From a bacterium (GTDB taxonomy: Bacteria > ARS69): DNA of 64,000 nt. Where the stretch lies: the NCBI GenBank assembly GCA_025774805.1, contig JALGZR010000023.1:1-64000 (forward strand). The letters are read 5' to 3'. Positions 1 to 17,721 of the stretch are shown here, one piece after another. Both the position numbers and the translations under genes were made by a program. The notes below the pieces were generated by a model. That model made no database searches. It saw only the letters and a list, made by a program, of their open reading frames with translations, and was not told the DNA's origin. Within the stretch, counting starts at the first letter, position 1. The number at the start of each line of letters is the position of its first letter.

Positions 1-150
1 ACTCAGCATTGGTGGCGTGTCCTTCCTGCCCGTCCGGGCATCTGTGTGATGGCTCACACGAAAGGATACGCCGCCTTTCTCATGCTGCCGATCCACAACT
101 TCTGGTCATACCTCTGGACTGACTCAGAATCTCCTCTACGGAGGTGTTTA

Positions 151-339
151 GTGGAATCACAGTATGCATCCGTCGCGTACGTCAACTTCCTCTTCGGCAT
201 CTTCTGTGCGTACTGGGCACAGGTCACCTACCGTAGCGCCTGGCTCTGGTTTTTCATGGGTCTTTTGTTTGGGCCGATCACGGGAGTGGTCTTAGCATCG
301 AAGAACGTGGACCACCGCAAGACGAGGCAGGTTGCCTGA
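151..339 (+). CDS. Small two-span membrane protein (cassette gene 1)
   Basis: Encodes 62 residues from a GTG start at 151. The GTG is chosen because GGAGGT (140-145) lies 5 nt upstream; an in-frame ATG at 46 gives 97 residues but lacks such a site. Two hydrophobic stretches are visible (about residues 8-24 and 28-47), rich in Trp, Phe and Gly with the string WFFMGLLFGPITG, followed by a short basic tail. Tiny membrane proteins of this look are frequent anonymous cargo of integron cassettes. No function can be assigned. It is followed by a degenerate attC-like region before the next gene. Confidence 0.6.
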   Translation: MESQYASVAYVNFLFGIFCAYWAQVTYRSAWLWFFMGLLFGPITGVVLASKNVDHRKTRQVA

Positions 340-487
340 GTCGTCTCAGGGGAGGCTGAGCTGTGCCGCCGGGCACTGGACCGTAACAGAATAGGCGTAT
401 TGTGGGCTGTTTCGCACCCTGAAGGTGAAACGGCCAGTTTCAGCAGACGCGTGTTGCGCAGGCCAACTCGCGGCTGTCGCCGACGGC

Positions 488-551
488 CACTAACGCGGGC
501 GTCGACAGTGCAGCGAAATCAGGGCCCAGGCTGAGCGGCCGGGCGTTGAGC
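488..551 (+). repeat. Degenerate attC-like recombination site
   Basis: CACTAAC (488-494) resembles the R'' box RYYYAAC. GTTGAGC (545-551) is a perfect GTTRRRY R' box. The right arm CTGAGCGGC (531-539) is shared with the sites at 1077, 1828, 2875 and 4211. Internal pairing is weak, so this is probably a decayed site. Confidence 0.45.
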
Positions 552-570
552 GGACAAGGAGTATGGGGGC

Positions 571-1032
571 TTGAGGAAGATGCCCGAGTCGAAACGGACA
601 CTGCCCCCAACGTACCTTTTGGGGTCCTTGGCCGCCACCATGGGCCTTCACTTCTTTCTGCCGGTGCGGCTTCTGGTATCGTATCCAGGGAATCTGGTCG
701 GAGTACTGCCGATTCTCTTCGGGATCGGTCTGAACATCCTCGCGGACCAGCTTCTGAAGTCCCACAACACCACGGTAAAGCCGTTTCAGGAGTCGACGGC
801 CATCGTCACGTCCGGAGTGTATCGCTGGACCCGAAACCCAATGTACTTGGGCATGGTCTTGATACTGCTGGGCGCTGGCTGGATTGCGGGGTCAGTGACG
901 GCGCTGATTCCATGGCTCGTGTTTGGCGTACTAATGGACCGCGTGTTCATCAAACCTGAAGAGTCAATGCTCGCCTCGAAGCATCCGGACAAGTGGCTGG
1001 AGTACAGTTCTCGAGTCAGACGCTGGGTTTAG
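571..1032 (+). CDS. Isoprenylcysteine carboxyl methyltransferase-like membrane protein
   Basis: A 153-residue membrane protein of the ICMT/phospholipid-methyltransferase superfamily (SAM-dependent methylation at the membrane). The family signature is visible in the C-terminal half: SGVYRWTRNPMYLGM followed by two hydrophobic spans, then an EESML segment and a terminal W-x-EYSSRVRRW stretch, which in the family binds SAM. N-terminal spans lie at about residues 14-30 and 36-56. The start is TTG 571 after a GGGGG run, or ATG 580. The stop codon lies 5 nt before a clear attC, so the gene is a typical single-gene cassette. The substrate cannot be predicted. Confidence 0.75.
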   Translation: MRKMPESKRTLPPTYLLGSLAATMGLHFFLPVRLLVSYPGNLVGVLPILFGIGLNILADQLLKSHNTTVKPFQESTAIVTSGVYRWTRNPMYLGMVLILLGAGWIAGSVTALIPWLVFGVLMDRVFIKPEESMLASKHPDKWLEYSSRVRRWV

Positions 1033-1037
1033 AGGCG

Positions 1038-1097
1038 GCCCAACAAACCGCTGGAGCGGACGGGCTTCGCCCGCCGCTGAGCGGCTGCGCGTTCGCG
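1038..1097 (+). repeat. attC site (clear)
   Basis: R'' box GCCCAAC (1038-1044) and R'-position box GTTCGCG (1091-1097). The strand folds as CCGCT/AGCGG, GCGG/CCGC and CGGGC/GCCCG around a TTC loop. Extra unpaired bases occur on one arm only, which is the extrahelical-base pattern that gives attC sites their strand polarity. It lies directly after the ICMT-like gene. Confidence 0.8.
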
Positions 1098-1107
1098 TGG
1101 GGAAGAC

Positions 1108-1509
1108 ATGAGGTTCTATATAGCATCTTTCGTCGGAGAGCGAGACCGTACGCAAAAGATCCAATCCTCGTTGCGTCGTCGGGGTCACGACATTACCCTG
1201 GACTGGACGTCTTTCCCTGGTGTCCCGACACGAGAGCGAAATGACCGCCCCGATGAAGTCCGCGCCATAGCTGTGCGTGATCTGGAGGGGATTCGGTCCG
1301 CAGACGTCTTTGTGCTTCTTGCTTCCGTTGGCGATGGACGGGCTAAGTACGCCGAACTGGGCGCAGCTATCATGTCTGCGGTTCAAAACGGCAGACCACG
1401 TATCTACGTGCTTGGGGACAATCCGGACCATTCGGTCTTTTTCTTTCACCCGACGGTGGTACGGGTGAACTCGATGGAAGACATGCTGAACGATTTGAGC
1501 GAAGCCTGA
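1108..1509 (+). CDS. Nucleoside 2-deoxyribosyltransferase-like protein
   Basis: A 133-residue cytosolic protein resembling the nucleoside 2-deoxyribosyltransferase-like fold. It begins with a beta strand (RFYIASFVGERD), has an IRSADVFVLLA strand, then the segment KYAELGAAI, where the Glu corresponds to the family's catalytic nucleophile, and a final strand RIYVLGDN followed by an FFFHP segment. Such short relatives are common in genomic islands and cassettes. Whether it acts on nucleosides, NAD or nothing is unknown. The ATG is preceded by a GGGGAAG ribosome site. The stop codon overlaps the putative R'' box of the next attC. Confidence 0.6.
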   Translation: MRFYIASFVGERDRTQKIQSSLRRRGHDITLDWTSFPGVPTRERNDRPDEVRAIAVRDLEGIRSADVFVLLASVGDGRAKYAELGAAIMSAVQNGRPRIYVLGDNPDHSVFFFHPTVVRVNSMEDMLNDLSEA

Positions 1510-1571
1510 CGCGAAAGATGGGTTGCCCTTGACCGTCGCTTGGGCGCCGGCCAGCGAACCGGACGTTGGGC
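1504..1571 (+). repeat. Probable attC-like site
   Basis: GCCTGAC (1504-1510) overlaps the stop codon of the preceding gene and differs from RYYYAAC at one position. GTTGGGC (1565-1571) is a perfect R' box. The arms pair only partly (GCCC/GGGC core), so the assignment rests mainly on the boxes and the position. Confidence 0.45.
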
Positions 1572-1585
1572 GGTCAGCGAGGTAG

Positions 1586-1753
1586 ATGATGAGGACATCG
1601 TCCGAACGATCGGACGTTGTGGCCCTCAGGTACCCAGGGCCGGAAATCGCCCGTTGGGCGGAGGAAGGGGGCTTCGTCGTTGATCGATGCACGGCTGAGC
1701 CAGCAGAGGGCTCTCCCACGGATGCCATCTACCCGGAGGGAAGCCGGACGTAG
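1586..1753 (+). CDS. Small cassette ORF, 55 residues, unknown function
   Basis: A short ORF filling the unit between the attC-like sites ending at 1571 and starting at 1756. Two ATG codons in a row (1586, 1589) follow a weak GAGGT. The product begins MMRTSSERSDVV and is soluble, mildly acidic and without recognisable motifs (central segment EIARWAEEGGFVVD). The stop lies 2 nt before a clean R'' box, which is the usual cassette layout and the main reason to believe it. No family is recognised. Confidence 0.4.
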   Translation: MMRTSSERSDVVALRYPGPEIARWAEEGGFVVDRCTAEPAEGSPTDAIYPEGSRT

Positions 1754-1755
1754 CG

Positions 1756-1848
1756 GCCCAACAATGCGCTGCAGCCCACGGCCCCTGGCGCGGCCGTCGG
1801 CGAGCAGGTCAGAGCCCGGGGCCGTGGCTGAGCGGCTGCGCGCTCGTC
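1756..1848 (+). repeat. attC site
   Basis: R'' GCCCAAC (1756-1762). The arms CAGCC-C-ACGGCCCC and GGGGCCGTGGCTG pair fully except for one extrahelical C. The outer right arm CTGAGCGGCTGCGCG (1828-1842) is identical to that of the site at 1077. The R' position reads GCTCGTC, a departure from GTTRRRY. Confidence 0.7.
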
Positions 1849-2083
1849 GGAGAGATTGTCGTTTTCAAGGGGTGGTGTGCGCAATGAGTTCAGTTGTGTA
1901 CACGTGAGGAGAGCTGGGCATGAATGCGCTATCCATAGGCGGCCGGCGCGGCCTTTTCGACGTGTTTGTCCCGGGCCCTGCCGGACACGACCCGCCGAAT
2001 GACCGGACTACGGATCCGGCCGTCCATGGCTGTCCTGTTCGGCTGCGACGAACACGCTGCTGGAAGGAGGGGGGAACGAGAGC

Positions 2084-2728
2084 ATGAAAGCAGAGACACT
2101 TCATCGTCGGCTCAGTGGGAAGGGCGGTCGGCTGGAGGGCGTAACCCAATCGGTCCTTCGTTCGCGGACTTTGCTGGGCCATGTGGTGGGAGGACTCGGA
2201 TCCGATCAGGTTACCGTGAGATTCAATTCCAGCAAGGTACTGCTTGCAGTGGCGAAGGAAGCTCCAGAGGTTCTGGTCCCGCAGCTTCGGTCTCTCCTGA
2301 AGCTATTGGACTCGGACAACAGAATCCTGAAAGCGGCGGCGATCCGGACACTTGGACATGTCTCTCGCGCGGATTCCCATGGCCGAATTACCAGGAGGCT
2401 TGGCAAGATCCTAGAGTCCATATCCGGCCCTGACCTCGTGGTCGCCACGAGTGCGATCGAGGGCGCGGTGCTCGTCGCCCGGGCAAAGCCGCAGCTTGTC
2501 GACCGCGTAGTGCCGGCGCTATTGTCTGTCGGAAGGGGCAAGTACCGTACAGCCGAGTGCAGGAGTATAGTCATCGGCAAGGCGCTTGAGGGGCTCTCGC
2601 GGCTCCACTCTCATTCGAATCTGACACGGAAGATCCGGCAATTTGCTTCGTCCCAGCGACGAAACCCACGAAGAACAACCCGGGAACGAGCACGCGAACT
2701 GGTGAGACGGTTGGAAACTCCGAGTTAG
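2084..2728 (+). CDS. HEAT-like alpha-helical repeat protein
   Basis: A 214-residue, very basic, all-helical protein. Repeated helix pairs resemble HEAT repeats: VRFNSSKVLLAVAKEAPEVL then LRSLLKLLDSDNRILKAAAI, with the RTLGHVS ending typical of a HEAT turn, then LVVATSAIEGAVLVARAKP. Such solenoids are protein-interaction modules; no enzymatic motif is seen. The ATG at 2084 follows a strong GGAGGGGGG Shine-Dalgarno. It is a single-gene cassette between the attC sites at 1756 and 2804. Function unknown. Confidence 0.6.
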   Translation: MKAETLHRRLSGKGGRLEGVTQSVLRSRTLLGHVVGGLGSDQVTVRFNSSKVLLAVAKEAPEVLVPQLRSLLKLLDSDNRILKAAAIRTLGHVSRADSHGRITRRLGKILESISGPDLVVATSAIEGAVLVARAKPQLVDRVVPALLSVGRGKYRTAECRSIVIGKALEGLSRLHSHSNLTRKIRQFASSQRRNPRRTTRERARELVRRLETPS

Positions 2729-2803
2729 AACGTCAGGAAGGACGTCTGGAGGCCATGGGAGCTGGCTCGGTCTGCGACGAGATGCACTGAGAACATGGGG
2801 ACC

Positions 2804-2895
2804 GCCCAACAAGCCACGACTGCCGACAGACACCGCCACAGCCATCGATCTGCCCGAGAGAGCCGAGGCCGCGGCTGAGAGGTTGCTCGTTGGCA
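2804..2895 (+). repeat. attC site
   Basis: R'' GCCCAAC (2804-2810) and R' GTTGGCA (2889-2895), with the family arm CTGAGAGGTTGCTCG starting at 2875. The outer arms align as imperfect inverted repeats (AGCCAC..CTGCCG against AGCAAC..CAGCCG). The 92-nt length is within the attC range. Confidence 0.65.
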
Positions 2896-2913
2896 CGACA
2901 ACAATGAGGGCTC

Positions 2914-3407
2914 ATAATTAGGCCAGATCATCGCACGGTTCTCTTGGAGTTGCTCGAACGACTTGCGGGCGCGGATGTGATTTGGACTCTCACCGGCAGC
3001 CTGGCGCACGCACTCCAGGGTGCGCTTTTCGACGTTCATGAAATCGACATCCAAACGAATAAGGACGGGACTTGCCGTATCGTACGACTGCTCGAGGATG
3101 CGGTTGTCCGGCCAGGGTGGTGGCATCCAGCCTCCTCCGTCGGTCACACTATGGAGAAATGCACCTTCACTGTGTGAGGATCGAGATTATGAGGGCGATG
3201 CAGAAGCGACTCTCGGATGGCTCTCGGGGGCAGCCAGTGGATGTGTCAGCCCACCGGGTATTCGTGAACTTGGACGGTCACGATGTGCCTGTCTCATCGC
3301 TAGAGTACGAATGGCGGGCTCACGGGCGGAGAGGCGGGCCAGACCGAGCTGCTGTGCTCAAGCGAAGCGCAGCGATGAAGAGGAAGGAGAGATCTGAAAG
3401 AGTGTGA
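2914..3407 (+). pseudogene. Frameshifted nucleotidyltransferase-fold cassette gene
   Basis: Two overlapping frames together give one nucleotidyltransferase-like protein. The first half (from about 2914, frame of 2944) carries LTGSLAHALQGALFDVHEID, with the G-S and D-x-D-type features of minimal nucleotidyltransferases. The second half (frame of 3072) gives HYGEMHLHCVRIEIM followed by QKRL and ends with a charged tail. The frame change falls at about 3110-3130. No ATG, GTG or TTG sits at the expected start: a GAGGG site is followed by ATA-ATT at 2914-2919. Lost start plus frameshift indicates a decayed cassette gene. Its stop overlaps the next attC. Confidence 0.65.
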
Positions 3408-3468
3408 TAACAAGGCAATGCAGGCGGAGGGCCGCTTCGCAGCGCCGCCGATTGTCAACGCGTTAGCC
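3405..3468 (+). repeat. attC site
   Basis: The R''-like TGATAAC (3405-3411) overlaps the stop codon of the broken gene; R'-like GTTAGCC is at 3462-3468. Arms CAAT-gca-GGCGG and CCGCC-g-ATTG pair with unequal bulges, giving the asymmetric extrahelical bases typical of attC. Length 64 nt. Confidence 0.7.
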
Positions 3469-3491
3469 TTCTGAGGAAGGACGAGGGAGAT

Positions 3492-4133
3492 ATGACACTC
3501 AGTCGGTCTATTACGGGCGCCGCACTTCTGTCACTCGGTTTGGCTCTAGGGTGTTCCGATGACTCTGTTTCGATATCGAGCCAAAGGTACTCAGCGCTTT
3601 CAGACAGCAGCTTCGCAGTCGGCGATTCAAGCATTCTCGAAATCGGCAATTTCGCAGGCAAGGTGACGGTGATGCCTGGTGATCTTGGTCTGGCGCATGT
3701 CGTGGCCACGAAATGGGCTGGGCAACAACAGGACCTGGATGAGATCGGGGTTGAAATGGTCCAGATCCCGAATGGTGTTCGCATTCGCACGACCAGTCCT
3801 TCGGGATTGACCAATACCTCTGTCGACCTGGAAGTGACGGTTCCAGCGGATGCACGGCCAACTATCCATAATGGCGCGGGAGACATAGGTTACGAGGGCG
3901 GAGCGCTAGGCGAGAGCTCGTTTTCCGTAGGTGCGGGTAGTATTGCGCTCAGACTGCCAGCCGAGGTCAACGTGGAGCTGTACCTATCTGTCGGTGTAGG
4001 CTCGATTCGCGTGGAATTTCCCATTGTTGGACAGGTAACCGAGCACCTCGTCGACGGAGTCATCGGAACTGGAGCCAACGGCAGGATTGTGGCCCAAGTG
4101 GCGGCAGGCGGGATCGAGGTGATATCTCAATAG
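3492..4133 (+). CDS. Lipoprotein with a beta-rich DUF4097/head-GIN-like domain
   Basis: A 213-residue predicted lipoprotein. The signal peptide ends in the lipobox LGLALGC (Cys about 21), so it should be anchored to a membrane on the periplasmic side. The mature part is a repetitive beta-solenoid-like sequence with runs such as FSVGAGSIALRLP and LSVGVGSIRVEFP, as in DUF4097 or head-GIN putative adhesin domains. The ATG at 3492 follows GAGGAAGGACGAGGGAG. It is a complete single-gene cassette between two attC sites. Its role is unknown; members of this fold are often surface or auto-transport stress proteins. Confidence 0.65.
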   Translation: MTLSRSITGAALLSLGLALGCSDDSVSISSQRYSALSDSSFAVGDSSILEIGNFAGKVTVMPGDLGLAHVVATKWAGQQQDLDEIGVEMVQIPNGVRIRTTSPSGLTNTSVDLEVTVPADARPTIHNGAGDIGYEGGALGESSFSVGAGSIALRLPAEVNVELYLSVGVGSIRVEFPIVGQVTEHLVDGVIGTGANGRIVAQVAAGGIEVISQ

Positions 4134-4141
4134 GACGAGCG

Positions 4142-4232
4142 GCGCAACACGGGGCCACAGCCGACGGGCCGTGGACTGCGTCCTTTCTGGAAGCTGCGAC
4201 AGGCCCGTGGATGAGCGGCCGCGCGGTCGGCG
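4142..4232 (+). repeat. attC site
   Basis: R''-like GCGCAAC (4142-4148, one mismatch). The right arm ATGAGCGGCCGCGCG (4211-4225) belongs to the family arm, and the R' position reads GTCGGCG (4226-4232), i.e. GTT changed to GTC. The core pairs as CC-g-ACGGGCC with GGCCCGTGG, leaving one extrahelical base. Confidence 0.65.
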
Positions 4233-4241
4233 CAAAGGGGG

Positions 4242-4676
4242 GTGTCGGTGCCGTCGATTGCTGTTTTCGAGCCCAAGCATATCGACATGGCGATCTCGTT
4301 GTGGAGGACTACGGAACATATCGGGCTTAGCAGCGCGGATGAGCCAGCGGCTCTGGCCGTCTTTCTGGACCGGAACCCGGGATTCAGTTTCGTCGGTCTG
4401 GAGTTGGACGTTGTCGTGGGGGCGGCGCTTTGTGGTCATGATGGTCGTCGCGGCTATCTTCACCATTTGGCGGTAGTAGAGGGCCACCGTCGCGGTGGTC
4501 TGGGACGCAGGTTGTTGGAGTCCTGCCTGGACAGGCTCCGTGTGGCGGGTATCGGGAAGTGTCACGCGTTTGTGTTTTACCGCAACCCCTTCGGGGATCG
4601 GTTTTGGCGTCCGCTCGGATGGCAGCGGCGCAACGACATACTCGTATACTCCAGGCAGGTTCCTGGCAGCGCCTAA
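4242..4676 (+). CDS. GNAT family N-acetyltransferase
   Basis: A 144-residue GNAT protein that would transfer an acetyl group from acetyl-CoA. Motif A is visible as HHLAVVEGHRRGGLGRRLLE, with the R-x-x-G-x-G-like pyrophosphate loop (HRRGGLGRR) after a beta-4 strand. A C-terminal FYRNPFGDRFWRPLGW matches the motif B region. The start is GTG 4242 after AAAGGGG; a second GTG at 4248 is possible. The stop TAA lies inside the next R'' box (GCCTAAC), a tight cassette arrangement. The substrate is not predictable; small GNATs are among the commonest cassette products. Confidence 0.75.
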   Translation: MSVPSIAVFEPKHIDMAISLWRTTEHIGLSSADEPAALAVFLDRNPGFSFVGLELDVVVGAALCGHDGRRGYLHHLAVVEGHRRGGLGRRLLESCLDRLRVAGIGKCHAFVFYRNPFGDRFWRPLGWQRRNDILVYSRQVPGSA

Positions 4677-4736
4677 CAAGGGATCATAGGAGAGTCACGG
4701 CCGCAGATCTGGAGTGATCTGAGGTCGTGGTTGGCC
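4671..4736 (+). repeat. attC site
   Basis: A perfect R'' GCCTAAC (4671-4677) contains the stop codon of the GNAT gene; R'-like GTTGGCC is at 4730-4736. Arms CACGGCCGCAGATC and GATCTGAGGTCGTG pair with two mismatched or wobble positions around a TGGAGT loop. Length 66 nt. Confidence 0.7.
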
Positions 4737-5181
4737 GTCTCCACCTATACACGCCGCCCTCCGGCATCTACCTCACCCGCCTTTTGCTCGAGGGGGGGTG
4801 GACACCGGCCGCGCGCTCCTGCTACGGTGATTTGGCGCGACCGCGTCGGGCTTCCCTTTTCTAGTCCGCTCGAGACGTTGGACTACCGGAGGGCAGCGTC
4901 CCTGATGAGCGGGGCCCCGCCTCCGCGCTCGACAACAGGGGGCCATGGGCTCGCACGTTCGGCGCGAGTGCCTTCGAACCATGCTGAGTATGGCGACACG
5001 GGCAGATCTCTGGACCCCAGACCCGTGGAGCGCGATCATCTCCACTGGGGCGGCATGGTGCCCGTAAGGGCGTTGGCCAAACCCGCGGACTGAAGTGCTT
5101 ACCATGTCATCGGCCCGTTACCGTACCGCAGACTCGCCTAGAGAGCGTATCCAGCCGCGGAGCTTGGCTGTTACGTTGCCA
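4737..5181 (+). other. Gene-poor cassette remnant
   Basis: About 450 bp between two attC-like sites. The only longer frame (about 120 codons ending at 5093) has a composition unlike a protein (many Pro, Arg and Ser) and no recognisable motif. A perfect R'-type box GTTGGAC occurs at 4877-4883 without a matching R''. It is best read as a decayed cassette or fused remnants. Confidence 0.4.
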
Positions 5182-5236
5182 GCCAGCAAAAGGGCGGACG
5201 CTTCGCGTCCGCAGCACACCACACGCCGCCCTTGAC
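5182..5236 (+). repeat. Degenerate attC-like hairpin
   Basis: A perfect 8-bp hairpin with a TTC loop (GCGGACGC / GCGTCCGC, 5194-5212) nests inside AAGGGCGG (5190-5197) and CCGCCCTT (5226-5233), which can pair alternatively. The left box reads GCCAGCA instead of RYYYAAC and no good R' follows, so this is a decayed attC or simply a strong hairpin upstream of the VOC gene. Confidence 0.45.
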
Positions 5237-5283
5237 GCTCGCGGCCGATACGCGGTCCGCTATGCAGACACATGGAGGCAACG

Positions 5284-5679
5284 ATGAAGATCAAGCTCGA
5301 GAGCGTGTACGTCTCCGATCTGGACGAGGCGCTTGCTTTCTACACAGACGTCCTTGGATTCATCAAGAAGAAGGACGTCGCCATGGGAGAGACGCGCTAT
5401 CTGACAGTCGTATCGCCTGAGGAGCCGGACGGCACGGAGTTGCTGCTCGAGCCGTGCGGAGAGCATCCGGCGACCAAGGCGTTCAAGAAGGCCCTCTTCG
5501 ATGAAGGGATTCCTTTGACGGCATTTCTCGTCGATGACGTTGCCGCGGAACATGCGCGACTGGAGAATCGTGGCGTGGTATTCCGCTCCGCTCCGCAGCG
5601 GTACGGCGATGAGACGATGGCCGTCTTTGACGACACTTGCGGAAACTGGATCATGATCTATGAGATACACACAGAGTGA
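5284..5679 (+). CDS. VOC/glyoxalase superfamily protein
   Basis: A 131-residue vicinal-oxygen-chelate protein with one full pair of beta-alpha-beta-beta-beta modules. The N-terminal module reads VYVSDLDEALAFYTDVLGF, the classic first helix of glyoxalase or bleomycin-resistance domains. The C-terminal module has AVFDDTCGNWIMIYE, where the Glu is the usual last metal ligand. The ATG at 5284 is preferred over ATG 5272 because GGAGG (5274-5278) is 5 nt upstream. Proteins of this size act on small electrophiles or sequester antibiotics; the substrate is unknown. The stop is 15 nt before the next attC. Confidence 0.75.
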   Translation: MKIKLESVYVSDLDEALAFYTDVLGFIKKKDVAMGETRYLTVVSPEEPDGTELLLEPCGEHPATKAFKKALFDEGIPLTAFLVDDVAAEHARLENRGVVFRSAPQRYGDETMAVFDDTCGNWIMIYEIHTE

Positions 5680-5693
5680 CTCCGAACGCACGG

Positions 5694-5764
5694 GCGCAAC
5701 GTTTCATTAAACGGATGCAGCGGATGGCCCGCTACTCGGGCCGCCGCGGAACCGGCCGTTGGGT
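5694..5764 (+). repeat. attC site
   Basis: R''-like GCGCAAC (5694-5700) and a perfect R' GTTGGGT (5758-5764). The core arms GCGG-at-GGCCCG and CGGGCC-g-CCGC pair around CTACT with unequal bulges. Length 71 nt. Confidence 0.7.
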
Positions 5765-5783
5765 TGACAAGGGAGTTCCGAGA

Positions 5784-6265
5784 GTGAATGACGAGCGGAT
5801 CCATACGTTTGAAGCCACTGTCAGGTTCATGGAGGAGTCGGTCGCCGATCTATCGGACGAGGAGATGGTCGAGCAACTCTCAGGAGTGCCCAACCAGGGA
5901 GTATTGACACTCGGCCACATTATCTTCAGTTGTCAGGATACGGCGACTGAGCTCGGTCCTGGACCGTAGTTGCCGAGTGATCGGGAAACCGTCTTCGGAT
6001 ATGGCAGCACCCGCGGTGGCAGGACGAACGATATCCTCAGAAGAACCGACTTCAGATGCTCCTTGTAGATGCCACGGTCCGTTTGTGCCAGGTTGTACGT
6101 GGCGCGAACGCAACGGTCCTGAGACGGCGACTGTCGGATGACGCGTTGCCTATAATGGGTCAGGTCGTGCTGCAGGTTGTCGTAGCACACACCGCGTTTC
6201 ACACCGGTCAGCTTGCGATGTGGCGTAGGGCGATCGGGAAAGAGTCGGTAGGCGTCTCCGTATAG
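5784..6265 (+). pseudogene. Broken DinB-superfamily gene
   Basis: A DinB/YfiT-like four-helix protein split by two lesions. The first frame (GTG 5784 after GGGAG) reads FEATVRFMEESVADLSDEEM then GVLTLGHIIFSCQD and stops at TAG 5967-5969. A Trp codon is expected there in relatives, and the reading continues sensibly for about 30 codons. A frame change near 6050 leads to the frame of 6056, ending with VVAHTAFHTGQLAMWRRA, the C-terminal metal-ligand helix (H-x-x-x-H-x-x-Q pattern). The total length would be near 160 residues, normal for DinB. A TGG to TAG nonsense change plus a 1-2 base indel shows decay inside the cassette array. Confidence 0.7.
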
Positions 6266-6294
6266 AAGACCGGTGAATCTGTCTGGGAGGCGAT

Positions 6295-6400
6295 GAGCAA
6301 CCTACCGACGGCATGGACCTGTCGAGTGGTCTCTCCGCCACATCCCTGGCGGTGGTGGGGGATCGACTGTCGACGCGACCCCTGGCCGGTTCGGTTGGCG
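6295..6400 (+). repeat. Possible attC-like site
   Basis: GAGCAAC (6295-6301) and GTTGGCG (6394-6400) flank a 106-nt segment. It contains CCGCCA/TGGCGG and an outer GTCGA/TCGAC pairing. The boxes deviate from consensus, so this is tentative. Confidence 0.35.
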
Positions 6401-6432
6401 CGAGAACGGCCCGCAGGTGATACCAAGAGGTC

Positions 6433-7212
6433 ATGCGATCAGACCAAGCCATGAGATTCGACGCGGAACGGGTGAAGCAGTTCTACTCCCGGCAGAACGA
6501 GTGGGCGGGCGTCTATGATGGCGACGTCGCTGAGGCCCACCGGAGGAACGCCGCCATTGTCCACCGTATGTCCGGGGGCAGAGTCGGACGTCTTCTCGAA
6601 TTGGGGGCTGGTGGCGGACAGAACGGGGCTGCAGTCGCCGATCTTGGATTTTCGGTGGTGGCCGTCGACCTCACTCCTTCCGTGGCACGGAACGCCGAGA
6701 AGTTGGCAGCCCAGCCTCGGGGAGGACGGCTGAGAGTCATCGTGGGCGATTTTTTCGAGGTGGAATTCCCGGATCCTTTTGATGTCGTGTGCTACTGGGA
6801 TGGGTTTGGCATCGGAAGAGACGTCGACCAGCGCCGCCTGCTCGAACGAATTGCCGGCTGGCTGAGACCCACCGGATTTGCGCTGATCGAGGTCTATTCT
6901 CCTCAATACTGGGCCCGTGCTGCGGGGAGACAAGCGGGGTTCGGAGGGGCGGTACGCCGGTATGGCTTTGATGTAGAGAACTGCCGCATGCTGGACAGGT
7001 GGTGGCCCGTCGGCCACGAGGCTCAGGCGGTAATCCAATCCCTTCGGTGCTATTCTCCGGATGACTTCCGCAGACTTGTGAAGGGGACTGGGTTGGCCGT
7101 GGAATCGATGGAGCCGCGAGGGGCGGTGGACTTCGACAGGAACCAGTTCGTCGAGCAAGTGCCGCTTGAACGGGCTATGCAGTACCTTGCCAAGGTGATC
7201 CCGGCCCAGTAG
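6433..7212 (+). CDS. Class I SAM-dependent methyltransferase
   Basis: A 259-residue Rossmann-fold methyltransferase. Motif I is LLELGAGGGQNGAAVADLG (about residues 54-72), followed by the acidic ribose-binding VVAVDLTPS and the motif II region VVCYWDGFGIG. The C-terminal half has a long insert rich in aromatic residues that probably forms the acceptor site. The ATG 6433 follows AAGAGG; an in-frame ATG at 6451 is an alternative. It stands alone between attC-like sites. The acceptor is unknown. It is one of four small SAM methyltransferases in the first 25 kb. Confidence 0.75.
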   Translation: MRSDQAMRFDAERVKQFYSRQNEWAGVYDGDVAEAHRRNAAIVHRMSGGRVGRLLELGAGGGQNGAAVADLGFSVVAVDLTPSVARNAEKLAAQPRGGRLRVIVGDFFEVEFPDPFDVVCYWDGFGIGRDVDQRRLLERIAGWLRPTGFALIEVYSPQYWARAAGRQAGFGGAVRRYGFDVENCRMLDRWWPVGHEAQAVIQSLRCYSPDDFRRLVKGTGLAVESMEPRGAVDFDRNQFVEQVPLERAMQYLAKVIPAQ

Positions 7213-7235
7213 GCCGAGGGGGTCAGCCTATGACC

Positions 7236-7273
7236 ACCCAACAGGACCGATATGTCGGCCGATCCGGTTGAGC
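7236..7273 (+). repeat. Possible very short attC-like site
   Basis: A perfect R'' ACCCAAC (7236-7242) and a perfect R' GTTGAGC (7267-7273) flank a GGA-CCGA-tatg-TCGG-..TCC hairpin. At 38 nt it is shorter than known attC sites, so it may be truncated or coincidental. Confidence 0.4.
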
Positions 7274-7500
7274 ATCTGACGGAGGCGGAGGCGTGGTGTT
7301 CGGGTTGTTCCATTCCGACTCGGAAGCGTGAGAAGAAGCTGGAAGTGTGCTTTACCGGAACCCGCGCTTCGGAGAAGAAGGACCCGGCTTCCACGGCCGA
7401 GGAGGGCAATCTGAACGTGGTTGGATCTGTGACCAAGAACCTGGGAGTGTTATTCCGCGATCCAAACACCGGCCTCAATACGTTCGGCATGTCGTCGTGA
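7252..7500 (+). CDS. Hypothetical small ORF upstream of a GNAT gene
   Basis: An 82-codon frame (ATG 7252) that starts inside the attC-like segment. Its TGA stop overlaps the GTG start of the next gene (GTGA), an arrangement that would allow translational coupling. The sequence is hydrophilic with three Cys in the first 35 residues (a CSGC pair) and no family I recognise. It may be a genuine leader gene, a decayed cassette, or chance. No convincing ribosome site precedes it. Confidence 0.25.
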   Translation: MSADPVEHLTEAEAWCSGCSIPTRKREKKLEVCFTGTRASEKKDPASTAEEGNLNVVGSVTKNLGVLFRDPNTGLNTFGMSS

Positions 7501-7997
7501 CAGAGAGATATTCAAAGGGTATCACGCATTTAAAGGACCCTTCCGCCTGCACCAAAGAGGAGCACCGAAAGTTCGAGCGTCTCGTCCGGCTGGGCTTTGA
7601 GGGTTCAGACGAAAGGCTACCTGAACGCATCCGGAGTGCCAGGCGCCTTGCCTTCTATTGTACGTCGGATGACGTCGTTACCGCGATCGCCGCGCTCAAG
7701 GCCCCCGATGCGGCCTATCGGAATGACGTCTTCAGGAAGGCAGAGGTCGGAGCCGATCCGCGCGAATATGAACTTGAACTGGGGTGGGTCTTCGTCGTTC
7801 CCGCTCAGCGCGGGAACCGGATCGCCGAAGGCCTCTGCCACCAACTCCTGGCGTCCGTGCCGACATCCAGTGTTTTCGCAACGACGCGTCCGAATAATGC
7901 CTTCATGACGAAGATCCTTTCGGCTCTCGGATTCAGGCAAGCAGGCAGGCCGTACTTACGCAACAAACAAGAGCTCGTGGTATTCCTGCGATCGTGA
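7497..7997 (+). CDS. GNAT family N-acetyltransferase
   Basis: A 166-residue GNAT-like protein from GTG 7497. Beta-4 and the acetyl-CoA loop read GWVFVVPAQRGNRIAEGLCH (the R-G-N-R-I-A pattern). The following strand, TSSVFATTRPNNAFMTKILS, carries the Asn-containing motif B seen where GNATs bind CoA, and the C-terminus is ALGFRQAGRP, the typical last hairpin. The start lacks a strong ribosome site but overlaps the stop of the upstream small ORF, so translation may be coupled. The substrate is unknown. No attC follows it convincingly, which marks the apparent right end of the recognisable array. Confidence 0.7.
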   Translation: MTERYSKGITHLKDPSACTKEEHRKFERLVRLGFEGSDERLPERIRSARRLAFYCTSDDVVTAIAALKAPDAAYRNDVFRKAEVGADPREYELELGWVFVVPAQRGNRIAEGLCHQLLASVPTSSVFATTRPNNAFMTKILSALGFRQAGRPYLRNKQELVVFLRS

Positions 7998-8462
7998 AAT
8001 ACGGCATCCTTGGCGACAGGGGTCATGGTGGCGCTCGCCCGTTTCGTACACTGTGAGTCGCCGGGGGAGGTGGAGTGGAGGATCTGGAGATTTCCAACCA
8101 TCCGCCACAACCTACGCCACTTGCGCCGGTGTGGGCCAGGCGGTGTGAGAGAGGGGCACTCACGGCCGGTCTTTGGATGGACTCCCCGAAGCACGATTCA
8201 CCACAGGCTCAATGGCAAACCACGAGCGTTTGCCATGACGGGCGTAACCGTCCGCACGGTGGACAATTGCGTCCACCTCACCGCGTGCTCAACGACGCTT
8301 GCATTCCAGGCAATGAGGCTTGATGCTTGTTTCGAGCTTGCTGTGACGTGGTGTTCGATTTGACTGCTGGAGCTGACCGCTCGATTCGTGGTTGTCAACC
8401 CGCGGCGGCTTTCTCCGACCGCGGGTGAGGGCCCGGGCACTGGGCTGCAAGGGAAGTAGGCG
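7998..8462 (+). other. Long intergenic stretch, no supported gene
   Basis: 465 bp without a believable gene. Near its end, ACCCGCGG (8398-8405) and CCGCGGGT (8419-8426) form an 8-bp inverted repeat. A GTGGAC/GTCCAC hairpin lies near 8259-8276. These could be remnants of attC arms or transcription terminators. Reading frames here look non-coding. Confidence 0.4.
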
Positions 8463-9203
8463 ATGGCGAGCCTCCGAATTCGATTTCTGGGGACCGGCGA
8501 TGCGTTTGGGAGTGGAGGTCGCCTACAGATGTGCATCCTTGCTGAGTCGGATGATCAGTCTCTCCTCGTCGATTGTGGCGCTTCCTCGCTGGTTGCCCTC
8601 AAGGGGGCAGGCGTTGACCCCAATAGCATTGGCACAGTCCTGATCAGCCATCTCCACGGAGACCACTTCGGTGGGCTTCCGTTCCTCATCCTTGATGGGC
8701 AGATTTCAAAACGCACCGGCCGTCTCCGCATCGCCGGTCCTCCTGGGCTCGAGACTCGTGTGACCCAGGCAATGGAGGTTCTATTCCCGGGTTCGTCGGG
8801 TGGACATCGGGCCTTCGATATTCAGTTTCAAGAGCTTCCCGAAGGTGTCCCGACCTCGGTCGGTTCTGTTACCGTGACTCCCTACGAAGTACTTCACGTG
8901 TGCGGTGCCCCACCCTACGCCCTCCGGGTAGAGATCGATGGTCGGATCATCGCGTACTCGGGCGACACGGAGTGGACGGATCGGTTGGTCGCGGCCGCTT
9001 CGGGAGCGGACCTGTTCATCTGCGAGTCGTACTTCTTCGACGAGAAGGTACGTTTTCACCTCGACTACTCAACGATCATGAAACATCGCTCGGAGCTCGG
9101 CTGCAGGCGCATCGTTCTCACGCATATGAGTTCTGACATGCTCGGGCACTTGTCTGAGCTGGAGGTTGAGGCGGCCTACGACGGTTTCGAGATCACGCTC
9201 TGA
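8463..9203 (+). CDS. MBL-fold metallo-hydrolase (RNase Z-like)
   Basis: A 246-residue metallo-beta-lactamase-fold protein related to the RNase Z/ElaC-like branch. It opens with RIRFLGTGDAFGSGGR and carries the zinc motif SHLHGDHFGG at residues 62-71 (H-x-H-x-D-H). Later metal ligands are plausible in EVLHVCG (His), YSGDTEW (Asp) and VLTHMS (His). The length is shorter than full RNase Z (about 300) and the flexible tRNA-binding arm is not evident, so a small-molecule phosphodiesterase or lactonase role is as likely. The ATG follows AAGGGAAG. Monocistronic. Confidence 0.75.
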   Translation: MASLRIRFLGTGDAFGSGGRLQMCILAESDDQSLLVDCGASSLVALKGAGVDPNSIGTVLISHLHGDHFGGLPFLILDGQISKRTGRLRIAGPPGLETRVTQAMEVLFPGSSGGHRAFDIQFQELPEGVPTSVGSVTVTPYEVLHVCGAPPYALRVEIDGRIIAYSGDTEWTDRLVAAASGADLFICESYFFDEKVRFHLDYSTIMKHRSELGCRRIVLTHMSSDMLGHLSELEVEAAYDGFEITL

Positions 9204-9215
9204 ATTGGGCAAAAC

Positions 9216-9294
9216 CTGCGGCCTGACCGGCGGCTGGACCTGACACCGGATGCTCTTCGCCTGTCGGCCGCTCGTACTGACCAGAGGGCCGCAG
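9216..9294 (+). repeat. Inverted repeat, possible attC remnant
   Basis: CTGCGGCC (9216-9223) and GGCCGCAG (9287-9294) are perfect 8-bp arms separated by 63 nt, located just after a stop codon like the attC sites further left. No GTT box follows. Confidence 0.3.
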
Positions 9295-9354
9295 CGGAGA
9301 GACTGGGCCTCCGCCGTCAGGAACAAGGGGCCATTCAAACCATGACTGGATGCT

Positions 9355-10101
9355 GTGAGTCTCTCTGACGAGTACAAGCGGCAGTGCGGCTGGCGGTCAT
9401 GGGCGGCAATGTTCGATGCGCTGCCGCCCATTGTGGGCCAGACCGTTCTGGATCTCGGATGCAGTGTCGGAGATCAGACCAAGGAACTGGTGGCTCGTGG
9501 TGCCGACGTGATCGGCTTCGACGTGAACGAGGATCTCCTCATGGAGGCCCGGTCGAAGGAACTCGCGGGAGCCGAGTTCCGGCAGGCAGACTTCAGGACG
9601 CTTCCCGAGCTGGCGACACCAGCAGACGGCCTTTGGTGCATTTTCACGGCGGCGCATTTTCCGGATCGACCGGAGGTGCTTGCGCTCTGGAAGGGAAATC
9701 AGCGCTCAGGCGGGTGGATCGCAGTCATGGAAATCGACAATCTGTTGGGACACGGACCCCTGGGTAACCGCAGCAGATCTCTGCTCGAAGGTTACGCCCG
9801 AGAGGCCTTGATCGCGTGCCGGTACGATTTCTTCAAGGGCCGCAGGTTAGTGAGCCACTTCGAGCGATCAGGGTTTACGGTCGTGAAGTCCTTCATTGTT
9901 GCGGACCAGGAGCTCTGCTTCGACGGCCCGGCGCAAGATGGCGTAGTGGTGGCCTGGCGAGCACGATTCGACCGTATGAAGTACCTCCAGGCCTTGTGTG
10001 GATCGGCTTTCGATCAAGTTCAGGAGGAGTTTCTCCGCTGTTTGAAGCGGCCAGACCACTGGACAGAGACCAAGGTGTATGCTTGCATTGCTACCACATG
10101 A
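9355..10101 (+). CDS. Class I SAM-dependent methyltransferase
   Basis: A 248-residue methyltransferase from GTG 9355, the only in-frame start. Motif I reads VLDLGCSVGDQTKELVARG (about residues 31-49), then the acidic strand end VIGFDVNED and the motif II region LWCIFTAAHFPD. After a helix comes GGWIAVMEIDNLLGHGPL, the post-III region. The second half is longer than the minimal fold, suggesting a dedicated acceptor pocket. The target is unknown. It follows an MBL-fold gene by 151 bp. Confidence 0.7.
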   Translation: MSLSDEYKRQCGWRSWAAMFDALPPIVGQTVLDLGCSVGDQTKELVARGADVIGFDVNEDLLMEARSKELAGAEFRQADFRTLPELATPADGLWCIFTAAHFPDRPEVLALWKGNQRSGGWIAVMEIDNLLGHGPLGNRSRSLLEGYAREALIACRYDFFKGRRLVSHFERSGFTVVKSFIVADQELCFDGPAQDGVVVAWRARFDRMKYLQALCGSAFDQVQEEFLRCLKRPDHWTETKVYACIATT

Positions 10102-10414
10102 GGCAGGTGGAGGCGCTCAGCAATCCGCAAGCGGACACGTGGCACTGGATCAGAAACTTCGAGAAGGATGGAAAACTCTCGACGTTCGCGCGGGTCGCCC
10201 GGACAAAGCAATGGTCATCGAGCTCACGGGGCGAGGAACACCATGGATCAGGAACCACCTGAGACGAGAGTGAGCCATCCAGAAGACGCCCGGCACGTCC
10301 CAGGTGAGGGGGGCGCTCGGAGTGAGGCCTGGCCGGGACCAGGATCACGCCAGGGGCGCGGGCAATCCGTTCACGCCTCCGTTGAGAGGAAGAGGTCGAG
10401 AGGTGAGTGAGGGC
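10102..10414 (+). other. Intergenic stretch, nothing certain
   Basis: 313 bp. Several short frames cross it, one of them ending LTGRGTPWIRNHLRRE, but none has a start signal or recognisable family. GTTGAGA near 10381 resembles an R' box without a partner. I see no clear gene or site. Confidence 0.35.
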
Positions 10415-10843
10415 ATGTCGACGGTGGAAAACAAGGCCCTGGTGCGGGATTACTATGAGCAGGTCGTGAGCACCGGAGACTTGACGCACATCGAAGACTA
10501 CGTTTCGCCGGAGTACACCGAGGTTCATCGTGGGGTGCGCCATGCGGTCGGTCTTGACGGTGCCAGGGAGCACATCCTTGGCGTGAGGCAGACATATCCG
10601 GATCTCGAGCTCACCGTGGATCTCCAGGTGGCGGAAGGGGAGTGGGTCGTGAGCCTCGTCAAAATGAAAGGCACTCACCGCGGGGAATGGCTCGGGATCC
10701 GACCCACGCAGAGAATGATTGAGACGACGGCGGTCAATGTCGATAGGGTGGTGGCTGGAAGGATCGTGGAGCACGGCGGGGCAGCAAACCTCCTGGAGCC
10801 ACTTCTAGAGATAGGAGCGATCCAGGCCGTCGGATCCGGATGA
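10415..10843 (+). CDS. SnoaL-like ester cyclase-family protein
   Basis: A 142-residue protein of the SnoaL/NTF2-like superfamily. It has the standard opening ENKALVRDYYEQVVSTGD, then VSPEYTEVHRG, a predictor helix REHILGVRQTYPDLELTV, and the barrel strands EWVVSLVKMKGTHRGEWLGI and VDRVVAGRIVEHGG. This matches the ester cyclase group (polyketide-cyclase relatives), most of whose bacterial members have no known substrate. The ATG at 10415 follows GAGTGAGGG. Monocistronic on the plus strand. Confidence 0.75.
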   Translation: MSTVENKALVRDYYEQVVSTGDLTHIEDYVSPEYTEVHRGVRHAVGLDGAREHILGVRQTYPDLELTVDLQVAEGEWVVSLVKMKGTHRGEWLGIRPTQRMIETTAVNVDRVVAGRIVEHGGAANLLEPLLEIGAIQAVGSG

Positions 10844-10996
10844 AGGACACGGGCACGAACCAACCTTCGAGCAAACAGGTGGGGCGGATCGCCCGGTGGC
10901 CTTCGAAAAGCGGTGGCCAAGAGTGACCGACCCGCGGGACCTGAGAAGCCGCGAGCCCGGCGCCGTTCTACGGGACGGGCCCGGTCGGATCGGAGC

Positions 10997-11485
10997 ATGA
11001 CAAAGCTCCCGCGTGACAACGCGTCCGCGAAACGCCAACGCCGATTCGCTTCGAAGCGAGACACCTGGCTCGTGATTGTATTGTGGGGCGCGGCACTCGG
11101 TCTCGTGTATGCGACCCTGGATGTTGCAAGGTCGCCAACGGCGGCAGCGTTCAGGGCCGTGTTTCTGTTTGTTTGCATTCTGGCCGCGGTCCTCATCTTG
11201 TGGATTCTGTACGGCACCTTCTATGTGCTAACGGGGGAATCGTTGCTGATCCACTGTGGCCCTTTCCGCCGGCGGGTTCTGGTCAGCACGATTCATGAGA
11301 TCATTCCCTCCCGGAACCCGCTGTCGAGCCCCGCTTGCTCGCTCGACCGTCTCCATATCAAGTATGACGGGTCGCGGTCCGGGGTGTTGATCTCGCCCTG
11401 GGACGAGCGGTCCTTCTCGCGGGAGCTCGTCAAGCTCGATAGAGAGCTCGTTCTTCGGGGGGATGGTATAGTCCGCCGTGCCTGA
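10997..11485 (+). CDS. PH-domain (bPH-type) membrane protein
   Basis: About 162 residues from ATG 10997. A GTG at 10913 in the same frame would add a basic, unstructured extension. Two adjacent hydrophobic spans (about residues 25-44 and 54-74) precede a beta-rich cytosolic domain starting FYVLTGESLLIHCGPFRRRV and containing VSTIHEIIPSRNPLSSPA. This is the typical layout of DUF1200/bacterial-PH proteins. Their function is mostly unknown, often linked to envelope stress or bacteriocin-type islands. Confidence 0.65.
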   Translation: MTKLPRDNASAKRQRRFASKRDTWLVIVLWGAALGLVYATLDVARSPTAAAFRAVFLFVCILAAVLILWILYGTFYVLTGESLLIHCGPFRRRVLVSTIHEIIPSRNPLSSPACSLDRLHIKYDGSRSGVLISPWDERSFSRELVKLDRELVLRGDGIVRRA

Positions 11486-11629
11486 CAGGCCACTCCGCTG
11501 CGCCCATCTTGTTTGTGTCAGGAATCGGGGAGGTCGGTCCGGGTTCCGCGGGGTGGGTCAGCGATGGTAGGCTCAATACCGTGAGTAGCTTCGCGATTTG
11601 CCGGTCGGACCGGCAGGGAGGGATTCCGC

Positions 11630-12154
11630 ATGATACGAGAGTGGTTTGTTTGCGCTGTGGCGGTGTCTTTGGTCATCTCCCTCGGGTCGGCCTGCTCACC
11701 CTCGGGTCCCGCAGAGGAGATCCTGGCGGAGATCCCGCTGGATTCTCTCGAGGAAGTGATCTCGAAGACCGGGGTCACCGTCGATTCCGCTGTCACCACC
11801 GATGGTCGGGGATCCCTGAGAGTCAGCGCGTCCGAGCCGATGACCGTACGCATCGCGGAGCTCGAAGACCTATCCGTTGACAATGCCCGATTGATCTACC
11901 GTGCACGGCTCCGCACGGCTGACCTCAGCGGCAAGACCTACTTGGAGATGTGGTGCGAGTTTCCCGGCAGAGGAGCGTACTTCTCGCGGGCGCTGGACTC
12001 TCCGGTCACAGGGACTAACGACTGGCTGTCTCAAGAGACGCCTTTTGTGCTGCAGAAGGGTCAGATCGCGAGCAAGGTGAAGCTCAACCTCGTCATTGAC
12101 GGTCCAGGGACCGTCTGGCTCGACGAAATCGTTTTGACGAAGGCAGCGCTATAG
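11630..12154 (+). CDS. Putative lipoprotein, beta-sandwich type
   Basis: A 174-residue predicted lipoprotein. The signal peptide (MIREWFVCAVAVSLVISLGS) ends in Cys 22 within LGSAC. The mature part reads like a jelly-roll sandwich, with RLIYRARLRTADLSGKTYLE and an ending VWLDEIVLTKAAL, resembling the carbohydrate-binding-like folds of uncharacterised lipoproteins. No catalytic residues are evident. It is preceded by GGGAGGG and has a GCCGGT/ACCGGC inverted repeat about 30 nt upstream. Function unknown. Confidence 0.6.
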   Translation: MIREWFVCAVAVSLVISLGSACSPSGPAEEILAEIPLDSLEEVISKTGVTVDSAVTTDGRGSLRVSASEPMTVRIAELEDLSVDNARLIYRARLRTADLSGKTYLEMWCEFPGRGAYFSRALDSPVTGTNDWLSQETPFVLQKGQIASKVKLNLVIDGPGTVWLDEIVLTKAAL

Positions 12155-12474
12155 CGTGTCTGACGTCAGGATTCGAGGCTCGAGATCAAGTCCGGGATCG
12201 ACGGGCATTCCCGGGTAGACTCATTTTGAGGAAGGAGAAAGACTGGCCCAAGCACGCGCGACACGCGAATGGTGTGGGCGATCTCGCCCGCTCTGTGCGT
12301 GCGCTGTGCGGGCACGCGCGAGGTGGCGACCCGTCGGGAGGCCGGGAGAGACCAGCTCCCCGTTTCTCGCACCCTATCGGGAGCGCAGTCCGGTTGACAG
12401 AAGGGGCTGCGGGTGAAACACATGGCGCGGGAACGGGCGCCCTTCTGTCCACGCGCCTTGGTTGAGGCAAGAAA
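12155..12474 (+). other. Intergenic region upstream of the deoxynucleoside kinase
   Basis: 320 bp with no supported gene. A TTGACA occurs at about 12395 but no good -10 lies at the correct distance. Short GC-rich repeats (GCACGCGCG twice) are present. No attC boxes. Confidence 0.35.
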
Positions 12475-13125
12475 GTGAAGAACACGACGAAGAAGCTCTT
12501 CGTGTCCATGGCAGGCAATATCGGGGCCGGGAAAACGACGGCGGCCAAACTCATCAGTCAACGGTTCGGCTTCGAGCTCTTTGATGAACCGGTCATCGAT
12601 AATCGCTTTCTGCGGGACTACTATGCCGCTATGCATCGCTGGTCTTTCACCCTGCAGCTGGAGTTCTTGATCCGTCGTGTGGAGCACCATGAGCTGATCC
12701 GTACGGTTCCGAAGAGCTGCATTCAGGATCGGACGCTGTATGAGGATCCCGAGGTCTTCGCGAAGTACTTGCACGGGTTGGGGTGTATGGACAATCGGGA
12801 ATTGGATCTGTACTTCGAATACTTTCACCGTCTGAATCGGGACTTACGGCATCCCGATCTGGTCGTGATGTTGGCGGTGGATCGGGTGGAGACGTTGTTG
12901 AAGCGGATAAGAAAGCGCGGCCGCCAGGAGGAACGGGGAATCGATGCGGATTTCCTGACCGGATTGAACGCCTATTACTCGACGTTTCCGCAGGTCTGCC
13001 GGAAGAAGTACGGAATACCGCTGCATGTGATCGGCGTAGACCAGCTCGATATTCGCTCTCCGGAAGGCCAAAGTGTGTTCTTGCGAGAAGTCGAAGAGGC
13101 GCTCAAGAGGAATGGACTGGAGTAA
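12475..13125 (+). CDS. Deoxynucleoside kinase family protein
   Basis: A 216-residue nucleoside kinase (phosphorylates deoxyribonucleosides for salvage). The P-loop is at the N-terminus, MAGNIGAGKTTAA (about residues 12-24). The substrate-binding motif QDRTLYEDPEVFAKYL corresponds to the DRS motif, and the LID region RKRGRQEERGID carries the catalytic arginines. Length fits dNK/dGK/dCK-type bacterial enzymes. The start is GTG 12475 after TGAGGCAAG. Specificity (dA/dG or dC/T) cannot be read from sequence by eye. Monocistronic. Confidence 0.8.
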   Translation: MKNTTKKLFVSMAGNIGAGKTTAAKLISQRFGFELFDEPVIDNRFLRDYYAAMHRWSFTLQLEFLIRRVEHHELIRTVPKSCIQDRTLYEDPEVFAKYLHGLGCMDNRELDLYFEYFHRLNRDLRHPDLVVMLAVDRVETLLKRIRKRGRQEERGIDADFLTGLNAYYSTFPQVCRKKYGIPLHVIGVDQLDIRSPEGQSVFLREVEEALKRNGLE

Positions 13126-13496
13126 GGTCGGAGCGCGCCGTCCGACAACGGGGGCGCCGGACTCGGCGTTTCGGACGGGGGAGGAGGCCAGGGGCCGGGC
13201 CATTCGCCTACCGGGGCTTGGCCTGATGTCGAGCTGCCTCTGACGAGTGGGGGGGACGGGGCGCCGGGCCTGAGAGCTGCAGAGTACCAAGTGTCGGCGG
13301 CCCACTCCCCAACTGACAGGGCGGAGCTTCGGGCCCGGTCCTACAGCGTACCCGGCGAAAAGCCGATCGAGTCGAGCCTCCGGCAGATCCCGGCGATTCA
13401 AGGCGCTTTGCCCTCGGTTTCGGGATCGGATACTCTCGAGCGCCACGACCGGGCAGTTGAGCCCAAAGTCCGGCCGGTGCAACGGAAGGAGGGTGA
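13126..13496 (+). other. Intergenic region, no supported gene
   Basis: 371 bp, very GC-rich. Frames on both strands are open mainly because stops are rare at this GC content; none shows a ribosome site with a recognisable product. GGAAGGAGGG at its end serves the next gene. Confidence 0.35.
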
Positions 13497-14060
13497 TTGG
13501 GAAAGCGCCCGAGTTTGACGACCAAGCGGCTGGTCCTGCGGCCGTTTTCGCCTTCCGATGCGAGAGACGTGCAGCTTCTCGCCGGCGACAGGTCGATTGC
13601 CGACACCACCCTGACCATCCCTCACCCCTACGAAGATGGAGCCGCGGAGGAGTGGATCTCCGGACATCAAGAGATCTACGATCGGGGAAAGGGCGTGACA
13701 TTCGCCGTCACGACAAAGGAGGATGGGGTCCTGGTCGGAGCAATAAGCCTCATGAGTGTTAGCGCCGGACATCAGGCGGAGCTCGGCTACTGGGTGGGCA
13801 AGCCGTTCTGGAATCGTGGATTCTGCACCGAGGCGGCGGAGGCGGTCCTGCAATACGCATTCGAGGAGATGGGTCTTGAACGCGTCCACGCTTGTCACCT
13901 GTCACGGAATCCGCCATCGGGTCGCGTGATGCAGAAGATCGGAATGCGCAACGAGGGGTGCCGTAGGCACCACGTACGGAAATGGGGAGTTCTCGAGGAT
14001 CTGGAGTTGTACGGGATCCTTCGGCAAACCTGGAAGGATCGGACTCCTTCATCCACATGA
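13497..14060 (+). CDS. RimJ/RimL-type GNAT acetyltransferase
   Basis: A 187-residue GNAT of the RimJ/RimL branch (protein N-terminal Ala/Ser acetyltransferases and relatives). It opens TTKRLVLRPFSPSDARDV, the hallmark of this branch, and has the CoA motif ELGYWVGKPFWNRGFCTEAA with W-N-R-G-F in place of Q-G-K-G. The end of motif B is RVMQKIGMRNEGCRR. The start is TTG 13497 with GGAAGGAGGG 6-8 nt upstream, and no ATG exists nearby. The target protein is unknown. Confidence 0.75.
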   Translation: MGKRPSLTTKRLVLRPFSPSDARDVQLLAGDRSIADTTLTIPHPYEDGAAEEWISGHQEIYDRGKGVTFAVTTKEDGVLVGAISLMSVSAGHQAELGYWVGKPFWNRGFCTEAAEAVLQYAFEEMGLERVHACHLSRNPPSGRVMQKIGMRNEGCRRHHVRKWGVLEDLELYGILRQTWKDRTPSST

Positions 14061-14097
14061 CGGTCGCCGCCGGTGGCTTTCACGGTAGCGGGGCAGA

Positions 14098-14733: not shown

Positions 14734-14779
14734 CGTTCAGGGGATGCGGAGTTTGGACGGGCACTCTTGGAGCCGACGA

Positions 14780-16365: not shown

Positions 16366-16564
16366 CCGGCGGTTGATGCCGGCGCACGGCATCGCGGGAC
16401 CGGTGAGGTGATGCGTCCGAATCGATCCGGACCGGTAGGCTCTGGAGCCGACGGCCAGCACCATCGACGCGACCCCTCGACGGGGATCGGCCGTGTCATT
16501 GGGGGTCCCGAGCCGAGTGGCATTGCGTCGGACGGACGGGAAACGTGTAAGGTATTTGTTTTCG

Positions 16565-17077: not shown

Positions 17078-17215
17078 GAGGGGGACCCGGTCGCCACTGC
17101 CCACCGCCCCGGACGCAGTCGCTGACCGTGCAGCGCAGGCCCGAGCACTTCGCAGCGGCGCATCCGGCACCTCGGAGTCGCGGTGCCGTTGGTACCGCCA
17201 GATGAGGACGATGCC

Positions 17216-17551: not shown

Positions 17552-17721
17552 GAGCTCGCAAGTGTGAGGGCCTTGCGTTCGAGGATGACGGGATCGCCAG
17601 GCCGGCGGCGGTTCGTTGACGGGTCGCACGGGCCGCCATAGTTGCCGACGGCGGCGTGGGTGGGCCTTCGCAGCGGCCACTCGAGAGCAAACCCCGGGGG
17701 AAAAGGACGCGTGATGGGGGC

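Follow-up and report, generated by a model that had tools for sequence, protein, structure and literature searches.

A probable decaying chromosomal integron of the inverted type in an uncultured bacterium near Krumholzibacteriota

How did a row of single genes, all on one strand and separated by attC-like sites, come to lie at the left edge of a bacterial contig that carries no integrase? The stretch analysed here, referred to as the window, covers positions 1-64,000 of contig C120 in a draft genome of 5.1 Mb and 284 contigs. The host is an uncultured bacterium of a phylum-level FCB lineage near Krumholzibacteriota; in an rpoB tree its lineage is sister to this group with about 63% identity, in agreement with an earlier note, which spoke of an FCB-like lineage. 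The same note read the array as either a CALIN, i.e. a cluster of attC sites without an integrase (PMC9668308), or the distal end of a chromosomal integron. We suggest that the first 7 kb of the window belong to a decaying sedentary chromosomal integron of the inverted type, of which they form the ageing distal part (probability about 0.86).

Sites were scored with an attC scorer trained on sites beside 80 integron integrases of other taxa, with dinucleotide shuffles as the null, and with a covariance model, R2, which was built from 41 of those foreign attC sites with loop length modelled and was used in place of an arm-only model, R1, that under-scores long sites. The recognisable array stops near 7.3 kb. 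The features are:

1-339, plus strand: 3' portion of a cassette gene that runs off the contig edge (reading frame uninterrupted from base 1 until its stop at 339); membrane-like protein, no Pfam match
461-551, plus strand: attC site A, R'' GGCCAAC, R' GTTGAGC; scorer 22.4, moderate
571-1032, plus strand: cassette gene, PEMT/ICMT-type methyltransferase (PF04191, 3.9e-14)
1038-1097, plus strand: attC site B, the window's best by covariance model, R'' GCCCAAC, R' GTTCGCG; scorer 36.2; R1 20 bits, R2 26.6 bits
1108-1509, plus strand: cassette gene, 133 aa, no Pfam family; stop directly before site C
1510-1571, plus strand: attC site C, degenerate, R'' CGCGAAA (6/7 positions complementary to site B's unusual R'), R' GTTGGGC; scorer 8.5, chance level alone
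1756-1848, plus strand: attC site D, R'' GCCCAAC (closes with site C R' at 7/7), R' degenerate; scorer 24.0
2084-2728, plus strand: cassette gene, 214 aa, no Pfam family
2804-2895, plus strand: attC site E, R'' GCCCAAC, R' GTTGGCA; scorer 20.9, moderate
2944-3407, plus strand: broken cassette gene, relative of the aminoglycoside-2''-adenylyltransferase family (PF10706 at 2944-3174, 2.6e-8, and at 3072-3404, 0.0034, in different frames)
3405-3468, plus strand: attC site F, R'' TGATAAC, R' GTTAGCC; scorer 38.6; R2 18.0 bits
3492-4133, plus strand: cassette gene, secreted or lipoprotein-like, 213 aa
4142-4231, plus strand: attC site G, degenerate; scorer 9.2; shared arm kept with one mismatch
4242-4676, plus strand: cassette gene, GNAT acetyltransferase (PF00583, 4.1e-12)
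4671-4736, plus strand: attC site H, degenerate, R'' GCCTAAC overlapping the GNAT stop; scorer 7.9; R2 8.2 bits
5272-5679, plus strand: cassette gene, glyoxalase/bleomycin-resistance-like (PF00903, 4.9e-20)
5694-5764, plus strand: attC site I, degenerate, R' GTTGGGT; scorer 12.5
5784-6265, plus strand: DinB-like cassette gene, probably broken (C-terminal part in another frame, weak PF05163, 0.0068; N-terminal part without a match)
6433-7212, plus strand: cassette gene, SAM methyltransferase (PF13489, 2.4e-13)
7236-7273, plus strand: attC remnant J, R'' ACCCAAC closing with site I R' at 7/7, its sole support; scorer -4.4
7274-24700, plus strand: possible fossil tail of single accessory genes, GC3 lower than in the chromosome, no recognisable attC
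24758-26032, plus strand: right chromosomal flank, beta-eliminating lyase of the threonine-aldolase type (PF01212, 6.4e-100), conserved in the relatives G001 and G003

In shuffled sequence, a scorer value of 23.3 occurs roughly once every 200 kb, and the highest value in 820 kb is 29.7. By this measure, sites F and B are clear, sites D, A and E are moderate, and sites C, G, H, I and J (-4 to 12.5) are each at chance level when taken singly. Between 1 and 7.3 kb, six plus-strand matches and one minus-strand match score at least 20; the remainder of the window has 0.37 per 7.3 kb. With R2, only two of the ten sites, B and F, pass, and no other named site of the window reaches even a borderline score. 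In a scan of the whole 5.1 Mb genome, only two R2 matches have an E-value below 1, namely site B and a site on a second contig, C266 (35440-35518). Rfam models at gathering thresholds have no match in the window. Thus, the roughly ten attC-like sites of the earlier note are present in the sequence at the places it gave, but their quality is uneven and most are weaker than it claimed; its own ground for doubt, namely that nearly every site would fall short of the covariance-model threshold, comes close to what is found. We ascribe this near-failure to decay because R2 recovers arrays outside its training set (Pseudomonadota and one unclassified MAG), always on one strand, as well as the array of the family relative G002. 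A weak attC-model match at 5181-5243 (10.8 bits), just upstream of the glyoxalase gene, is possibly an extra eroded attC site.

The boxes of the sites are worn as well. The strict pattern RYYYAAC...GTTRRRY has no match in 1-8 kb, and therefore the boxes are degenerate and those reported previously are loose matches; GTT is missing from the R' boxes of sites D and G. The window's only strict match, at 59755-59809, lies in chromosomal DNA, also scores on the other strand and was taken as chance. The arm CTGAGCGGCYGCGCG had been reported in five copies. It is exact at 1077 and 1828 and has one mismatch at 531 and 4211, but three at 2875, leaving four close copies; the attC of C266 contains it with two mismatches. 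As had been noticed, there are stop codons that touch or overlap R'', at about 1507, 3405 and 4674. Promoter-like sites are at chance level (two found, 1.9 expected).

In an integron cassette, the R' box at the start complements the R'' box at the end. In control arrays, this closure amounts to 93% between neighbouring boxes, 77% between permuted boxes and 75% within sites. In the window, R'-to-R'' closure is 49/63, compared with 41.6 after permutation (p = 0.003), with one pair that was itself chosen by closure; without this pair p is 0.03, and with the last pair dropped as well 0.19. We regard closure as supportive of an integron, not as decisive. Comparing the window's cassette proteins with the genes of 80 other integron loci yielded no useful information.

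As the earlier note observed, no integrase is visible in the window; one is encoded elsewhere in the same genome, at C266:32698-33639 on the plus strand (TIGR02249, 415.8 bits against a cutoff of 265), and it contains the IntI-specific patch region GAGREWTWHWAFPA. Downstream of this intI, at 1.0-1.9 kb and on the same strand, are two strong attC sites (R2 29.4 and 34.8 bits), one of them C266:35440-35518 at 1.8 kb, and the array extends to the contig end. An integron is expected to have two or more attC sites with less than 4 kb between them; C266 has such a pair, and so does the window (1038-1097 and 3405-3468). Inspection by eye revealed no clear attI downstream of intI on C266. Both intI and attC are on the plus strand of C266, the arrangement that defines inverted integrases, and the same arrangement is found in G002. 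In an integrase tree, the C266 IntI groups with same-strand integrons of Krumholzibacteriota, Rokubacteria, Acidobacteria and Elusimicrobia (support 96/96). An intI is present in three of the five genomes examined of the host's phylum-level lineage. The C266 gene is interrupted by an in-frame TAG ahead of the codon for the catalytic tyrosine; the residue that corresponds to the TAG is Tyr in G001 and G002. Judged by this stop codon, it appears inactive. Outside the TAG, the integrase departs from highly conserved positions only four times, a number that other integrases in the set reach; for this reason, the TAG may have arisen through faulty sequencing or assembly of the MAG.

Most likely, the right end of C266 leads into the left edge of the window. 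In the family relative G001, an orthologue of C266:19494-21510 is followed after 134 bp by an orthologue of C120:24983-25999 in the same orientation (the lyase shares 65% identity with G001:C18:13611-14627). In the present genome, the two genes are far apart: between them lie about 14 kb of C266, made up of 11 kb with genes of native appearance plus intI and the first cassettes, then an assembly gap, and finally 24.9 kb of C120. Because the ends of C266 and C120 do not overlap, the join rests on synteny. The array is missing at the corresponding place in G001, and the spacing of 134 bp there shows that it is not ordinary conserved chromosome; the earlier note had named such a conserved gene order in close relatives as speaking against an integron. 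G001 also has an intact integron integrase (C16:52833-53774) that ends 174 bp short of its contig end; its array, if any, is therefore unassembled or elsewhere.

Based on these data, we propose the following sequence of events, which draws on known integron biology. As long as it was active, IntI would have acted on attC as a folded bottom strand and recombined it with attI next to intI, so that new cassettes were added at the intI end and older ones pushed outward. Later, intI would have gained the premature stop, which would have frozen the array, and the attC sites and some cassette genes would now be eroding, more strongly far from intI. Site scores fall with distance from intI when the C266 sites are included (rho -0.66, p = 0.02) and, for window sites alone, with rho -0.58 (p = 0.08). 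The adenylyltransferase-like gene is split, with its N- and C-terminal parts in different frames, and the DinB-like gene is probably split also.

That the integron is still active, with the TAG an assembly error or suppressed and the degenerate window sites a lineage-specific attC variant used by IntI, seems unlikely to us. IntI tolerates diverse attC sequences, the attC sites on C266 are well formed and, apart from the TAG, the integrase there can be aligned over its full length. Yet the two C266 sites and those of G002 fit the general model, so that no special attC type of the family is needed; moreover, the R' boxes of sites D and G lack GTT and a cassette gene is split.

The earlier note's alternative of a CALIN in the strict sense, in which the cluster was captured separately and is unrelated to the C266 intI, could draw on the absence of an integrase from C120 and of an overlap between the two contigs; we consider it quite improbable, given that synteny and orientation set C266 and C120 end to end, joining the array to intI, and that the only R2 matches of the genome are on these two contigs, which have an attC arm in common. 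It is highly improbable that the region is an ordinary genomic island whose single plus-strand genes are accompanied by palindromes that arose by chance: although most sites are individually at chance level and 7.3-24.7 kb looks alike without attC, six plus-strand matches score at least 20 where 0.4 are expected, two sites match the covariance model, and the genome's only other R2 match is beside intI. The distal end of a chromosomal integron, the other option raised at the outset, is supported by the intI of the same genome and the synteny-placed contigs.

Inverted integrases, integrons across many phyla and intI pseudogenes have already been published (PMC8352920, PMC9668308, PMC2426708), and the array is a further example of these in which the pattern of decay is unusually visible. 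As in the inverted IntI sub-clade of sedentary chromosomal integrons discussed in PMC8352920, intI and cassettes are on one strand, single-gene cassettes are bounded by attC and IntI falls in the same-strand clade; here, however, intI carries a TAG, most distal attC sites are degenerate and, in a literature search limited to the name of a neighbouring group, no integron report came up for the host's phylum-level lineage. About one third of intI genes are pseudogenes, in what have been termed pseudo-integrons (Nemergut et al. 2008, PMC2426708). The present locus resembles these in having an intI with an internal stop and a decaying resident copy, but erosion of attC along the array is visible too. 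Taken alone, C120 would be called a CALIN; unlike in a CALIN, an integrase is present on a contig placed adjacent by synteny. The integron of G002 (intI on C352, array on C20) is similar in strand arrangement and has related attC arms, whereas its intI is intact, its attC sites are better preserved and its neighbours differ. By eye, a BrnT/BrnA-like toxin-antitoxin pair lies between attC sites of its C20 array (L125 1862-2373).

To the right of the recognisable array, the predicted genes at 7.3-24.7 kb are on the plus strand, with a GC3 of about 0.6-0.8 compared with about 0.85 further right. They encode metallohydrolase, methyltransferase, SnoaL, dNK, GNAT, CYTH, DinB, YbjQ, PALP, GrpB and carbonic anhydrase types. 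GrpB is missing from the four family relatives, and the dNK and PALP genes share 31-40% identity with other family copies, with other homologues elsewhere in the same genome. Plausibly, these accessory genes are cassettes of greater age that have lost their attC sites to erosion, i.e. an older fossil tail of the integron; no attC remnant that could prove this is detectable in 7.3-24.7 kb. A short perfect hairpin, GGCAAAC...GTTTGCC, at 8210-8237 scores 16.4 bits with both attC models and may represent either a terminator or an attC site that has collapsed; with R2, it is the window's sole noteworthy match (8214-8234) apart from sites B and F. A repeat of about 85 bp at 18650-18740, with the core TGGTGAGAAATGCGGGCTAG at 18717-18736 and more than 35 further partial copies genome-wide (78-91% identity), looks like an interspersed repeat, not attC. 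Tentatively, at slightly under even odds, the whole of 1-24.7 kb may be one integron array with an age gradient, in which attC sites are fresh close to intI and worn in the middle part, and the genes of the tail have outlived theirs.

The array extends integrons with a same-strand integrase to the host's uncultured, phylum-level FCB lineage. It is a candidate case for measuring attC decay after integrase death, and for asking whether captured cassette genes outlast their recombination sites. If the age gradient is true, 1-24.7 kb would be a readable fossil record of cassette acquisition, with captured genes turning into ordinary chromosome.
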